From the NCBI RefSeq assembly GCF_900113005.1, contig NZ_FONW01000001.1, positions 248,001 through 312,000 of the forward strand: a stretch of DNA of 64,000 nt. Reading direction: 5' to 3'. The translations under genes were made by a program, and so were the position numbers. The notes below the pieces were generated by a model. That model was not told the origin of the DNA. It worked only from the letters and a program-made list of their open reading frames with translations, and made no database searches. The DNA is from Sunxiuqinia elliptica. GTDB lineage: Bacteria > Bacteroidota > Bacteroidia > Bacteroidales > Prolixibacteraceae. Each line of letters starts with the position of its first letter. The stretch's first letter is position 1. Of the stretch, positions 32,885-37,789 are shown piece after piece.

Positions 32885-33571
32885 TTACTCAGCAGCCACC
32901 AACTGACGATCCTCACGAACCAGCCCATCTTCCAGACGAACCAAACGGGAACCATAGTGTGCAAATTTCTCGTTGTGTGTCACCTGGATAATGGTCATTC
33001 CCTGCTCATTCAATTCCCGAAGGACTTCCATAATCATCTCCCCTTGCGACGAGTGTAAATTTCCAGTCGGCTCATCGGCCAGTAACAAACGTGGCTTTCC
33101 TACGATGGCACGAGCAATACCCACCAACTGTTGTTGTCCCCCTGAAAGCTGGGCAGGAAATAAGTCCTTCTTGGCAACCATGTTAAACCGATCCAACAAA
33201 TCGGCTACCATGGCTTTCCGTTCTTTCCCTTTCACTCCTTTGTAAATCAATGGAGTTTCAATATTCTCATAAACCGTCATTTCCTCGATTAAATGATAGG
33301 CCTGAAAAATGAACCCCATGAAATTACGATGGTATTCCACCTTTTTCTTCTCTTTGAGCTCATTCACAGGCGCATCATAAAAAAACAAACTCCCGGCTGA
33401 TGGGGCATCCAGCAAGCCAATAATATTCAGAAGGGTGGATTTACCGGAACCACTAGGTCCCATAATACTAACAAACTCTCCTTCTTCAACTTGCAGGTTA
33501 ATCCCTTTCAGCACAAATGTCCGTTGAAACTTTGAATCGAAGTAACGGTCAATATCATTTAGTCGAATCAT
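32885..33571 (-). CDS. ABC transporter ATP-binding protein (LolD/MacB type), no permease nearby
   Basis: This 228-aa ATPase has the Walker A GPSGSGKST, a Q-loop, the signature LSGGQQQ, Walker B LLLADEPTG and the H-loop His in QVTHNEKFA. Overall sequence, including the FIFQAYHLIEEMTVYENI segment, matches the LolD/MacB/FtsE subgroup, which works with FtsX-like permeases in lipoprotein release or efflux. No permease gene is adjacent on either side, so it must pair with a protein encoded elsewhere. It begins with ATG at 33571; no promoter box is convincing. Confidence 0.9.
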   Translation of the reverse strand: MIRLNDIDRYFDSKFQRTFVLKGINLQVEEGEFVSIMGPSGSGKSTLLNIIGLLDAPSAGSLFFYDAPVNELKEKKKVEYHRNFMGFIFQAYHLIEEMTVYENIETPLIYKGVKGKERKAMVADLLDRFNMVAKKDLFPAQLSGGQQQLVGIARAIVGKPRLLLADEPTGNLHSSQGEMIMEVLRELNEQGMTIIQVTHNEKFAHYGSRLVRLEDGLVREDRQLVAAE

Positions 33572-33727
33572 ATTCTTTGTTTTTCACAATTGGTTCAGAA
33601 AACGTACCACAATGATACCTATATGAATTACAAACAGTTAACAAAATACAGTTCAGGAAAACTGTCAAATAAATTAACAAGTTCTGTCAATTTTTTTGAC
33701 AATTCACGGCATCTTTATTCCAATGAG

Positions 33728-33761
33728 ATGAAAAAAAGGGAACCACATGCATGGTTCCCTT
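33728..33761 (-). terminator. Terminator of the cytochrome/oxidoreductase unit
   Basis: On the minus strand a 10-bp perfect stem (33736-33745 with 33752-33761) is followed by a run of T (the A run at 33731-33737). It lies 20 bases past the stop of the oxidoreductase gene. Confidence 0.8.
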
Positions 33762-33780
33762 GGAGTTATTTCTTAAAGTC

Positions 33781-35130
33781 TTATTCAGCCGCTTCGCCCG
33801 GCACAGGAACTTTGGCATTCGGCACAATACCAACATCGCCCATAATGTACGTATCCGGTCCAAGTTTCACGTCTGAGTTCATCAATTCTTCATAAGTCAC
33901 TTCCTTGCCCGTGTAAGCTGAGGTACGTCCCATAATTGCACACAGGTTGGTAATGGCTGTTTGCTCGGCTTCATTCACCGAAATATTCTGACGTATGCAG
34001 GTAACCAGATCAATGTGCTCCTGTACGTAAGGACTGATCTTCACATTGCGCTCCGGCTGCCCGTTCTCATCCAGCGGATAAGGATACTTGTACAACTCTG
34101 CTCCGGTGGCATCCCAAATCGTATTCTTACAATTGGACGAGCCTTTTGTGCCCATCACAAACTCCGACACATTGTTGACACATCCGTTGATCTGACGGCA
34201 CATGCTATGCGTATGCATCTTATCATCGTAAGTAAAGTCGACACTGAAGTTATCAAACTGATCGCCTGTTACCCGGCGCTGGCGAGAACCAAAAGCAACA
34301 GCTTTGGTCGGGTGTTTGCCCGAGAACCAGTTAATCACATCAATATTGTGAATGTGCTGTTCCACAATGTGATCGCCCGACAACCACAACCAGTTCACCC
34401 AGTCGCGGATCATGTACTCCATTTCGCTCCAGTCGGCATTCGGGTTGCGATGCCACAGTTTCGACTGGTTCCAGTAGCAGTTGGCACTTACAATCTCACC
34501 AATGGCTCCATTGGCCACCTGCTTGTACACTTCAATGTAGTCGCGCTGGTGACGGCGCTGCGTTCCGGTTACAATTTTCAGGTCCAGCGATTCGGCTTTC
34601 TTAGCAGTAGCCATCACCGAGCGGATACCAACCGGGTCTACAGCCACCGGTTTTTCCATGAATACATGCTTACGGGCCTGTACGGCTGCCTCGAAATGCT
34701 GAGGACGGAAGTGAGGCGGTGTAGCCAGAATCACCAGGTCAACGCCCGAGTCAATCACTTTTTCAAAAGCATCAAAGCCCAGGAAAATATTTTCGTCAGG
34801 CACTTCATGATTGGCTTGGTCTTTCAGTTTCTTGCGGCAGTCATCAATCCGGTCCTGGAATACATCGCCCAGCGCATGGATCACCAGGTTAGGACCAGCA
34901 TTCAAAAAGTCGAGCGCTGCTCCCGAGCCACGGCCGCCACAGCCGATCACACCCGCTTTTATTGGTTTTCCATCCGGAGCCTGGTCCAGTAGTGGTGGCA
35001 GGTTCAGTTCCACGGCCTTTTGTTTTTCGGCACAGGAAACCAGCGCATTTGCGCCAATGACGCCAACAGCTCCGACTGCTGCGGCACTGGTTAAAAATCT
35101 TCGTCTTGAATAGTTCGATTTGTCTGTCAT
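33781..35130 (-). CDS. Tat-exported Gfo/Idh/MocA family oxidoreductase
   Basis: This 449-aa NAD(P)-dependent oxidoreductase has a twin-arginine signal (SRRRFLTSAAAVG) that also ends in a lipobox-like LVSC, so it may be a Tat lipoprotein on the outer face of the inner membrane. The Rossmann domain starts AGVIGCGGRGSG (about residues 58-69), the family's EKP motif is FMEKPVAV, and a C-terminal alpha/beta domain follows. Exported members are thought to carry tightly bound nicotinamide cofactor. It follows the tetraheme-SUMF1 gene by 15 bases in one transcript. Its GC content is visibly higher than that of its neighbours. The substrate, perhaps a sugar or polyol, is unknown. Confidence 0.9.
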   Translation of the reverse strand: MTDKSNYSRRRFLTSAAAVGAVGVIGANALVSCAEKQKAVELNLPPLLDQAPDGKPIKAGVIGCGGRGSGAALDFLNAGPNLVIHALGDVFQDRIDDCRKKLKDQANHEVPDENIFLGFDAFEKVIDSGVDLVILATPPHFRPQHFEAAVQARKHVFMEKPVAVDPVGIRSVMATAKKAESLDLKIVTGTQRRHQRDYIEVYKQVANGAIGEIVSANCYWNQSKLWHRNPNADWSEMEYMIRDWVNWLWLSGDHIVEQHIHNIDVINWFSGKHPTKAVAFGSRQRRVTGDQFDNFSVDFTYDDKMHTHSMCRQINGCVNNVSEFVMGTKGSSNCKNTIWDATGAELYKYPYPLDENGQPERNVKISPYVQEHIDLVTCIRQNISVNEAEQTAITNLCAIMGRTSAYTGKEVTYEELMNSDVKLGPDTYIMGDVGIVPNAKVPVPGEAAE

Positions 35131-35145
35131 GATATCTAGATTTAG

Positions 35146-36678
35146 TTATTGATTACCGGTTTTTTCATCAAATTCACACACAACACGGAAGCCAACCATA
35201 TTGGCATCAGAATACCACCAAATACTCTTTGGCATTTGTGGGTCAGTCTTCATCCAAGCTTCTGTTTTGGTATAATCACGAGTGGCTGAGCGAACGTCAG
35301 CAGCAGAACTCTTAAACGAACCACCACGAACAACATGTTCTGTTCCTGTTGCCGGCCCTTTGGGATCTTTTACACCATCGGTTAGCTTAGCGTAAGCGTC
35401 CGGAGCATACCAATCCTGACAGAATTCAGCCACGTTGCCGAGCATATTTTTCAGTCCAAAAGGATTCGACCGAACGGCAGATGGCAATTGTGTTTTCATC
35501 ATGCTATTGGCCTCATAAATAATGAACGAATTGATATTGGTTGTATCTGCTCCAAACAGTTTATTCCATAGTTTATCTTGAGAGAAATCTTTCGGGTTAC
35601 CTTCAAAAAAGTATGGCGATTGCGTTCCTGCACGACAAGCATACTCCCACTCAGCTTCTGTCGGCAAGCGGTAAGTTTTTCCGGTAACTTGCGACAACCA
35701 TTCGCAATAGGTCAAAGCGGCTTTATGACGCATGGTAATCGCTGGCCGGTTCCCCATTCCCCAGTTCTGATCGGGCTGTCCATACGGAGGTGTTGGCCCC
35801 GTAATGGCATCTACCTCGCCATCCATTCGGGTTCCTTCGGTATCAGTACTTCGGCCTTCAGCCCCGGTTTGCCCGTAAAATGCTAAGAACTCATTCCAGG
35901 TCACCTCAACTTCAGCCATAAAGAATGGGCTGATTTCAACTTGTTTCTGGGGTCCTTCATCCTCGTTCCGATAAGGCTCATTCTCCGGACTTCCCATTGC
36001 AAATGATCCTCCAGGAATGGCCACCATTTTAAATGATACTGGCGTATTGGGGATTTTCTCTGTAAATGTTTCGTGCTTGCTAACTGCTGTCGCTTCCTGG
36101 TAAATCTCACGATTTTCCTGCATGTCTTTTCCAAAGCCAACATTGCTTTCATGCGTCGCATTTGGATCAAAGTGCCCAACGTGCAAGTGACAGTTAATAC
36201 AGCTCAACTCCTCCTCATTCTGAGAATAATACAAGTGAGCATCCTGCCCCTCAGCAGATAAGGTCAGCGGGAATAAGTTAGCATGGCATTGCACACACGA
36301 AGCTTTGTAAGTAAAATGTTGCGCCTGTTCCACCGTTGACTTAGCTTCCCAGTTGAAACTCTCATGATCTTTGAACAAATAGCCATAAATGTCTTTTGCT
36401 CCCAGGCGGGCTTTCTCAACCAGATAACCTTCTCCTTTGGGAGGCAAGTGACAGTCGACACAACCGACCTGAATCCCACTTTTATTATCATAATGGGTTG
36501 ATAATTTCCAAGACTCGGTTACATGTGGATGCACGTGACATGATTCACAGAACTCGTTGGTCGACGTATACTCCACCGATCGGTTAAAGCCAATCAGGAC
36601 CAAAAGCCCCAATGCAAATCCAATAAATAGTACAAGAAGAATCTTTTTTTGAAAGAATTTTCGTAGCCTTCCAGCCAT
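35146..36678 (-). CDS. Membrane-anchored tetraheme cytochrome c fused to a SUMF1/FGE-like domain
   Basis: This 510-aa protein joins two parts seldom found together. The N-terminal half has an uncleaved anchor helix (about residues 13-30) and four CXXCH haem sites at 44-48 (CESCH), 73-77 (CVDCH), 128-132 (CVQCH) and 160-164 (CINCH), like NapC/NrfH quinol-oxidising cytochromes. From about residue 216 (FKMVAIPGGSFAMGS) to the end it has a formylglycine-generating-enzyme fold, with RLPTEAEWEYACRAG (337-351), LGNVAEFCQDWY (413-424), VVRGGSF (449-455) and GFRVVCEF (496-503). The catalytic cysteines expected just after RGGSF are absent, so sulfatase activation is unlikely. It is followed after 15 bases by the exported oxidoreductase gene, suggesting a shared periplasmic redox role. 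Confidence 0.88.
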   Translation of the reverse strand: MAGRLRKFFQKKILLVLFIGFALGLLVLIGFNRSVEYTSTNEFCESCHVHPHVTESWKLSTHYDNKSGIQVGCVDCHLPPKGEGYLVEKARLGAKDIYGYLFKDHESFNWEAKSTVEQAQHFTYKASCVQCHANLFPLTLSAEGQDAHLYYSQNEEELSCINCHLHVGHFDPNATHESNVGFGKDMQENREIYQEATAVSKHETFTEKIPNTPVSFKMVAIPGGSFAMGSPENEPYRNEDEGPQKQVEISPFFMAEVEVTWNEFLAFYGQTGAEGRSTDTEGTRMDGEVDAITGPTPPYGQPDQNWGMGNRPAITMRHKAALTYCEWLSQVTGKTYRLPTEAEWEYACRAGTQSPYFFEGNPKDFSQDKLWNKLFGADTTNINSFIIYEANSMMKTQLPSAVRSNPFGLKNMLGNVAEFCQDWYAPDAYAKLTDGVKDPKGPATGTEHVVRGGSFKSSAADVRSATRDYTKTEAWMKTDPQMPKSIWWYSDANMVGFRVVCEFDEKTGNQ

Positions 36679-37093
36679 GACGTTTAGCGTTTTAGTTAGT
36701 TTAAATTAGAGCAGTTGCCTACAAATTTAATAAAAACAAGCACTCAAAATACTTTTTAACTCTAGTAAAAAAGAATAAAGGTTGCCGGGCAGCAACCTTT
36801 TTCAAGGGAAAAATCAAAATGGGAAAAGGAAATTGAAAATGAAACGGTTAACAAAGGACTAGCAAAAGTTTAAATTAACAGAGCCATTTTCGTACAAACT
36901 CACAAGTGTTTCTATGAAATAAGCAAGTAAAAGACTAACTTATATGGTGTTAAAAATACACGAAAAGAAACAGCCCGAGCTTATGCTTGATTTACGAAAG
37001 CATTAAGCGATCATTAACGATCATCCGAAATAAGATCTGAATTATTAGCATAACTTTAACACAACCTGACGACAATTGGTCCAGTATTTAATC
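36679..37093. other. Long AT-rich non-coding gap with an orphan hairpin
   Basis: No credible frame is present in these 415 bases between divergent genes. The one clear structure is the hairpin at 36777-36802. A minus-strand TAAATTTG box at 36722-36729 could serve the tetraheme gene (44 bases before its ATG), but a -33 TTG at the right distance is lacking. Confidence 0.55.
36777..36802. terminator. Orphan terminator-like hairpin
   Basis: A perfect 9-bp stem (36777-36785 with 36792-36800), a 6-base GC-rich loop and T runs on both strands. No annotated gene on either strand ends here, which hints at a short untranslated transcript. Confidence 0.6.
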
Positions 37094-37789
37094 ATGTCAC
37101 AACTAATTACATACCTTCAAGCTTTTGCCGAACTTTTCTATCCTCGGATTTGTCTGGTTTGCAATGAGAAACTGATTGCAACAGAGAAGCACTTATGTCT
37201 GACCTGCCTGCTGCACTTGCCACGTACCAACTATCATGAGCAAGCCGAAAACAAGCTTGAGGAGCTCTTTTACGGACGTGTTCAGATTCATCGGGCAAGT
37301 GCTTATTTTGAATTCAAAAAAGGAAGTTCCTACCAAAAAGTGCTCCATCATCTAAAGTACAGGGGACAAAAAGATTTAGGGGAGTTTATGGGAAATCGAT
37401 TTGCTGAAGAAATCAAACAAGCCGACTGGATTCGGAAGGCAGACCTGCTTTGTCCGGTTCCGCTTCATCCTAAGAAGGAGCGCAAACGAGGCTACAACCA
37501 AAGCTTTCACATTGCAAAAGGGATGGCTCAATCGCTACAAATACCGATCTCCCGGCAAGATTTAATTCGGAAGAAATTCTCTTCAACACAAACCCGAAAA
37601 GCACGTTACGAGCGGTGGGAAAATGTAAGTGAGATCTTTGAACTCAAAAACCCAGCAGTTTTTGAAGGAAAGCATGTTATTCTTATTGACGATGTCGTGA
37701 CTACTGGCTCGACACTAGAAGCATGTGCACAAACCATTTTAAACAAATGCCAGTGCCAAATAAGTGTTTTGACACTGGCAATTGCCTAG
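37094..37789 (+). CDS. comF: ComF family phosphoribosyltransferase-like protein
   Basis: ComF-type proteins have a zinc ribbon and a phosphoribosyltransferase domain and are linked to DNA uptake and amidophosphoribosyl chemistry. The 231-aa protein has N-terminal cysteines in CLVCNE and CLTCLL, then LCPVPLHPKKERKRGYNQS, which is highly typical, and the PRPP motif VILIDDVVTTGSTL near the end. ATG 37094 is used in place of an upstream TTG at 37076. It stands alone; its actual role in Bacteroidota is unproven. Confidence 0.9.
   Translation: MSQLITYLQAFAELFYPRICLVCNEKLIATEKHLCLTCLLHLPRTNYHEQAENKLEELFYGRVQIHRASAYFEFKKGSSYQKVLHHLKYRGQKDLGEFMGNRFAEEIKQADWIRKADLLCPVPLHPKKERKRGYNQSFHIAKGMAQSLQIPISRQDLIRKKFSSTQTRKARYERWENVSEIFELKNPAVFEGKHVILIDDVVTTGSTLEACAQTILNKCQCQISVLTLAIA

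Follow-up and report, generated by a model that had tools for sequence, protein, structure and literature searches.

Cytochromes of the NapC/NrfH type normally take electrons from quinol, and enzymes of the Gfo/Idh superfamily can be redox-neutral, as GFOR is overall. To our knowledge it is an open question how a dehydrogenase that is exported together with its NAD(P) disposes of electrons once outside the cytoplasm. For NrfH (PF03264; structure 2J7A), the residues cited as conserved include Lys82 and Asp89 (PMC4683180), and Met49 and Asp89 are reported to be essential for menaquinol oxidation (PMC10654088). PvdO, which acts in pyoverdine formation (structure 5hha), is a periplasmic protein that was inactive and without detectable cofactor when purified; its need for an electron transport system is described as open, as are its cofactor and its electron partner (PMC6206403). 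On the dehydrogenase side, BT2158 of Bacteroides is described as a periplasmic glycoside 3-dehydrogenase, and no cytochrome partner is mentioned for Gfo/Idh enzymes of this type in the accessible part of its report (PMC11300592). The locus described here lies in a 64,000-nucleotide stretch of the Sunxiuqinia elliptica genome (contig NZ_FONW01000001.1), the whole of which is called the window below; it places proteins resembling all three in a two-gene unit on the minus strand.

The first gene of the unit (35146..36678, minus strand) is a single reading frame, with an ATG start and no internal stops, for a 510-residue protein that fuses a tetrahaem NapC/NrfH-type cytochrome to an FGE-fold domain. 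One membrane anchor helix (residues 13-38; 36565..36642, minus strand), predicted by AlphaFold2 and aligning with the N-terminal region of NrfH, leads into the tetrahaem domain (residues 38-173; 36160..36567, minus strand), with CXXCH at residues 44-48, 73-77, 128-132 and 160-164. The FGE-fold domain (residues 217-502; 35173..36030, minus strand), defined by Pfam, by motifs and by alignment to solved FGEs, follows and is without the catalytic cysteine pair. Both Pfam families score above their cut-offs, Cytochrom_NNT (PF03264, NapC/NirT) on residues 11-173 (E 1e-32, 113.7 bits against 24.1) and FGE-sulfatase (PF03781) on residues 217-470 (E 4.5e-41, 141.6 bits against 23.3). Thus the architecture that an earlier note had read from the letters alone, a NapC/NrfH-like tetrahaem cytochrome with one helix continuing in frame into an FGE domain, holds, and both Pfam domains are found in all 46 aligned members of the fusion family (E up to 0.001). 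A frameshift or an assembly join, which that note had named as fatal to its reading, can be discarded, since full-length homologues occur in many independent assemblies and both halves, with the four haem sites, are kept in 72 distinct homologues. The AlphaFold2 model, made with 46 homologues, has a mean pLDDT of 78.6 and a pTM of 0.62; most of the FGE fold is confident, the linker at 166-189 is of low confidence and the insertion at 273-305 of very low confidence.

Full-length fusion homologues are numerous, as judged from searches of 100 relatives and of a genome collection, and the closest, at 86 and 83% identity, are from Sunxiuqinia (family Prolixibacteraceae). Selection for at least three CXXCH plus the FGE motif gave 91 ORFs, all of which have four CXXCH; the 72 that are distinct came from targeted searches centred on the family of the window protein and are an uneven sample. 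Aligned with NrfH, the fusion pairs H50 with Met49, H62 with His61, K89 with Lys82 and D96 with Asp89, so that its likeness to NrfH takes in the single anchor helix, the four CXXCH, the Lys/Asp pair and His61. D96 is invariant in all 72 distinct fusions, as are the histidines H50, H62, H148 and H169, and K89 is kept in 71. The invariance of these histidines makes four extra ones available for four haems, and they may be the distal ligands. The clearest departure from NrfH, apart from the C-terminal FGE domain, is at haem 1, which reads CxxCHxH and not CxxCHxM in 72 of 72; judged by sequence, the fusion is a variant and not a standard NrfH, and its quinol chemistry may differ, given that a histidine stands where NrfH has an essential methionine. 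Unlike those at NrfH/NapC loci, moreover, the neighbours of the fusion in the window are, by eye, not NrfA or NapA. The Sunxiuqinia genome has a separate NrfH-like protein that retains CxxCHxM. On contig 11 (L165:562-2115) it also encodes a multihaem protein of 517 residues, part of which matches the NapC type, next to a protein that by eye resembles a b-type cytochrome; this may be another quinone-linked cytochrome of the organism.

The second half of the fusion has the fold of SUMF1/FGE (best E to a solved FGE 1.9e-33) and neither of its catalytic cysteines. In the alignment to solved FGEs, the positions of the pair hold a gap or a residue other than cysteine, and in the window protein there is no cysteine between RGGSF and C501. 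Formylglycine generation, which the earlier note had thought unlikely, is rejected on these grounds. Its term "cysteine-less" for the domain was inexact: C325, C348, C420 and C501 are present in the window protein, and among the 72 fusion homologues cysteine is found at 325 in 71, at 420 in 67 and at 501 in 70, where C325, C420 and C501 may be structural. The subfamily motifs PTPPYG and DPQxPKSxWWxxD vary little or not at all among the fusions, and DPQ.P.S.WW is invariant across 23 aligned rows, 16 of which are haem-free relatives. No metal or flavin site was found in the FGE domain, either in the sequence or in the predicted model. The top Foldseek match of the fusion model is PvdO (5hha; E 8.2e-18, TM 0.78 over the target length and 0.41 over the query length), with the solved FGEs ranking after it; matches by sequence and by fold also include PorK and the Treponema variable protein. 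PvdO is also the best NCBIfam match (NF051459), at 103.2 bits against a cut-off of 500. The other scores likewise fall below their cut-offs (EgtB, 58.2 against 360 bits; GldK, 98.7 against 350; GldJ, 42.7 against 458.2), so membership of the EgtB, GldJ or GldK type is rejected. Nine cyanophage records, for example Microcystis phage KF356199.1 (47311-48075), contain stretches with about 33% identity to the FGE half.

The second gene of the unit (33781..35130, minus strand) starts 15 nt after the fusion gene and encodes a 449-residue dehydrogenase of the Gfo/Idh/MocA family, with PF01408 and a C-terminal Gfo/Idh domain in Pfam, an RRRF Tat signal and a lipobox-like Cys33. An intrinsic-terminator-like hairpin (33736..33761, minus strand) closes the unit; its stem of 11 pairs is the longest among the six terminator-like sites in 33500-37200, where shuffled sequences give a mean of 3.8. 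The same arrangement recurs across the family. In 69 of the 71 distinct fusion loci that have a following ORF (the 72nd, L008, has its fusion at a contig edge and was left out), the next ORF is on the same strand and bears a Tat-type RR.F signal, at a gap of -35 to 217 nt that is mostly under 100 nt. This count rests on strand and RR.F, with blast clusters covering the window and loci L031-L092. The 35 of these 69 partners that were scanned with Pfam all have PF01408 and PF22725, which makes them Gfo/Idh/MocA proteins; Arg9, Arg10, Phe12 and Cys33 are invariant in all 35, and Tat export of the partner is predicted from these sequences. As for the two exceptions, L088 shows no Gfo/Idh reading frame in the 378 nt before its contig ends, and L090 has a different next gene and a gene of the Gfo/Idh cluster three ORFs upstream. 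The Sunxiuqinia genome contains 32 Gfo/Idh matches in 5.1 Mb, from which we estimate that a chance adjacency of fusion and Gfo/Idh would be of the order of 1 in 100. Of 60 Prolixibacteraceae genomes, 43 have fusion and partner and 17 have neither (G050 was placed with the 17 because it is not listed among the positives), counts that are not independent, since the two genes form one operon that is inherited together. Constant pairing of the fusion with a Gfo/Idh dehydrogenase is well supported.

The identity of the partner was examined by phylogeny and by structure. In a midpoint-rooted tree that included 22 of the 48 tetrahaem-partner rows, the Gfo/Idh proteins that accompany an FGE protein lie on one side, with support of 94/98, just under the star mark of the tool; these loci also contain nine Gfo/Idh genes of other kinds, which fall outside that side. 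Five rows labelled "other" lie within it; L127, L129 and L050 are true partners mislabelled by the label rule, and L128 and L090 are near an FGE gene without following it. The predicted fold of the window partner, of the kind known from NAD-dependent inositol and sugar dehydrogenases, matches inositol dehydrogenases first and, lower down, periplasmic glucose-fructose oxidoreductase and aldose-aldose oxidoreductase; superfamily and fold are thus common to it and to Zymomonas GFOR, the Caulobacter aldose-aldose oxidoreductase and BT2158 of Bacteroides. Against the BT_2158 glycoside 3-dehydrogenase family (NF058561), it reaches 34.4 bits where the cut-off is 750, and it is far below the cut-offs of all the curated sugar-dehydrogenase families in NCBIfam.

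Many genomes carry two copies of the fusion. The second copy of the Sunxiuqinia genome is 62% identical to the first and is adjoined by a Gfo/Idh gene of its own. In L073, L074, L075, L091, L092 and other loci, the second paralogue and its Gfo/Idh gene precede a glycosyltransferase-like gene and a gene for a large membrane protein, and several second-paralogue loci adjoin a protein of 830-860 residues in which LamG-like and regulator-like parts are seen by eye. Elsewhere, Tat-exported TIM barrels of the xylose-isomerase-like kind occur as neighbours in some loci, along with ThuA-like proteins and GMC-type oxidoreductases recognised by eye; proteins that had no family search were named from sequence in this way. 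We take these isomerase-like, ThuA-like and GMC-type neighbours to be such as occur in 3-keto-sugar pathways.

A survey of 395 Bacteroidota genomes, in which only three candidates per genome were scored, found 35 with a match to the fusion model (E up to 1e-60); 3 of these, the Sunxiuqinia genome included, have the full tetrahaem fusion and 32 have the FGE part alone. A Melioribacteraceae record, labelled Ignavibacteriota yet counted within Bacteroidota in this survey, also has the fusion. So does a record of Parabacteroides distasonis, a gut species (NZ_OY725790.1; 54% identity over 97%). At that locus (L133:8959-12888), fusion, Gfo/Idh and a Tat TIM barrel make a three-gene unit, with LuxR-type regulators and a TonB receptor downstream; the record is circular, 278 kb long and typed as a plasmid. 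In a tree of FGE domains, all 60 tetrahaem rows lie on one side with support of 100/100.

Eighteen haem-free loci were read, a subset of the 32 FGE-only matches in Bacteroidota, and in 14 the FGE gene precedes a Gfo/Idh gene of the same blast cluster, in one case with a short opposite-strand ORF between the two; in the remaining 4 (L113, L115, L119 and L128) no Gfo/Idh gene follows. Outside Bacteroidota, a search of 145 genomes of a phylum taken to be Verrucomicrobiota gave 13 matches to the FGE subfamily model (E up to 1e-60). Haem motifs were read in all 13, and a single CXXCH precedes the FGE domain in 2 and none does in 11; 10 were fetched with flanks, and neighbours were read in seven of these, L151 included. 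One of the two one-haem members, L151, has its CXXCH in a PSCyt1 domain (E 1.3e-17) and a Pfam-confirmed Gfo/Idh gene directly downstream, the product of which is distant enough to be missed by blast with another FGE-partner Gfo/Idh. The other, L159, has its CXXCH in a cytochrome-like stretch without a Pfam match and adjoins an ApbE gene. No Gfo/Idh gene was seen beside L159 or beside the five haem-free members read with flanks, and the pairing outside Bacteroidota is thin. Nine of the 11 haem-free members (L140-L148), from genomes of 2.7-3.3 Mb, are lipoprotein-like, 400-401 residues long, nearly identical at their starts and without a haem motif. In the FGE tree, L151 and L159 fall outside the tetrahaem clade and do not group with one another, but L159 is a long branch, and the two one-haem members may still share one origin. 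Taken together, the tetrahaem and one-haem members indicate that haem-bearing stretches of two kinds have been joined to one FGE subfamily.

The explanation that we favour, and to which we give about an even chance, is that the two proteins work as one redox unit, periplasmic and tethered to the membrane, with the FGE domain as the link between the Gfo/Idh sugar dehydrogenase and the haems and quinone. The dehydrogenase would be exported folded through Tat, presumably with NAD(P) bound, would be anchored to a membrane through a lipid attached to Cys33 and would oxidise a sugar-like substrate; its reduced cofactor would have to be re-oxidised in place, since it could not exchange with the cytoplasmic NAD pool. 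The FGE domain of the fusion would dock on the dehydrogenase and link it to the four haems. Electrons would then be exchanged with the quinone pool by the NrfH-like domain, through its K89/D96 contact. Of such a unit, the sequences show which domains are present, that the two genes are constantly paired, that the partner bears export signals, and that the NrfH-like Lys/Asp pair and four extra invariant histidines are there. Because the dehydrogenase is the constant partner, we infer that a path from sugar to quinone is no less likely than one from quinol to the FGE domain; the earlier note had electrons from quinol delivered directly to a catalytic FGE site, which is possible as one of the two directions.

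Several observations favour a redox unit, namely the constant pairing and joint presence of the two genes, the haem-free FGE proteins paired with Gfo/Idh, the one-sided tree of the partners, the one-haem members, the retained Lys/Asp pair, the fold matches of the partner and the neighbours of 3-keto-sugar type. The weak point is how a hydride, which carries two electrons, would pass them to haems that take one each: the FGE domain has no recognisable redox cofactor site, flavin or metal, and it is chemically awkward for NADH to reduce haem without a flavin. Attachment of flavin by ApbE (FAD:protein FMN transferase) was considered as a route for this step. ApbE genes are present in six haem-free or one-haem FGE loci (L113, L116, L118, L120, L158 and L159), two genes downstream of the FGE gene in L113, L118 and L120 and on the opposite strand in L116. 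None was found in the tetrahaem loci examined, many of which have short flanks, and the one ApbE match of the Sunxiuqinia genome is on another contig. A scan of five loci for the usual ApbE target motif gave no match. With no flavinylated partner identified in these five loci and no ApbE gene in the tetrahaem loci examined, this route is rejected. Counting further against the redox unit are the histidine at haem 1, the 4 of 18 haem-free loci without Gfo/Idh, the sparse pairing outside Bacteroidota, the low scores of the partner against curated sugar dehydrogenases and the redox-neutrality of which Gfo/Idh enzymes are capable.

In the main rival, the FGE domain would be the catalyst, a cofactor-poor oxidoreductase like PvdO. 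It would oxidise or reduce what the Gfo/Idh enzyme produces, such as a 3-keto-sugar, and exchange electrons directly with the fused haems, which amounts to the idea of the earlier note with a substrate added. We consider this unlikely, though it is the rival to be taken most seriously, and the two that follow rank below it. PvdO is the closest solved fold and the best NCBIfam match, and was itself inactive and without detectable cofactor when purified, its need for an electron transport system being described as open (PMC6206403); moreover, the motifs DPQxPKSxWWxxD and PTPPYG could line a pocket. The fusion scores far under the PvdO cut-off, however, at 103.2 bits against 500, and PvdO has no fused haems and belongs to a different operon. 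Nor can a pocket be read from the model, where the PTPPYG insertion (273-305) is of very low confidence and no metal ligand set is seen.

A purely structural role for the FGE domain, as in GldK/PorK and Treponema TvpA, seems improbable to us. The domain would in that case only bind or scaffold, placing the Gfo/Idh lipoprotein by the cytochrome or binding glycans, with a Gfo/Idh enzyme that is redox-neutral and a cytochrome that serves another partner. The appearance of PorK and the Treponema variable protein among the matches fits such a role, and so does the existence of redox-neutral Gfo/Idh enzymes such as GFOR; moreover, since haem-free FGE proteins keep the same kind of Gfo/Idh partner, haems are not needed for the pairing. 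What scaffolding leaves unexplained is why haem stretches of two kinds should have been joined to one FGE subfamily, and why tetrahaem fusion and dehydrogenase should agree over 60 genomes. Flow in reverse, in which electrons from quinol would travel by way of the haems and the FGE domain and hold the cofactor of the Gfo/Idh enzyme in its reduced state for periplasmic keto-sugar reduction, is very improbable: NapC/NrfH-type proteins are normally fed by quinol and the Lys/Asp pair is kept, but reduction of NAD by electrons at the potential of NapC haems would be uphill and the haem-1 methionine is replaced by histidine in 72 of 72.

Each part of the coupled unit favoured here is of a known kind; what is new is the combination, the change at haem 1 and the constant Gfo/Idh partner. 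The last two had escaped the earlier note, as had the haem-free FGE-Gfo/Idh pairs. The earlier note did not recognise the design as a described system, and this stands to the extent that searches of open-licence PubMed Central texts for the cytochrome-FGE fusion architecture or its host group gave no paper on the fusion; it does not stand for databases, where the architecture is already present, the one annotated fusion record examined being named only "SUMF1/EgtB/PvdO family nonheme iron enzyme". A broader claim, which we put forward tentatively and hold to be doubtful at present, is that periplasmic NAD-dependent sugar dehydrogenases have a respiratory outlet not yet described, in which the FGE-fold domain has become an electron adaptor of Gfo/Idh enzymes. 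The haem modules joined to this adaptor would be of the tetrahaem NapC type in Bacteroidota and one-haem cytochrome stretches in two genomes outside.

A natural fusion of FGE and cytochrome in a constant operon with a dehydrogenase makes both the question of electron disposal and that of PvdO testable with two purified proteins. If the adaptor role is true, cofactor-free PvdO-like FGE proteins may in general be electron-transfer-coupled enzymes. A relative of the operon is found in the Parabacteroides distasonis record, and the findings as a whole suggest that, in some bacteria, periplasmic NAD-dependent sugar oxidation may be wired into the respiratory chain.
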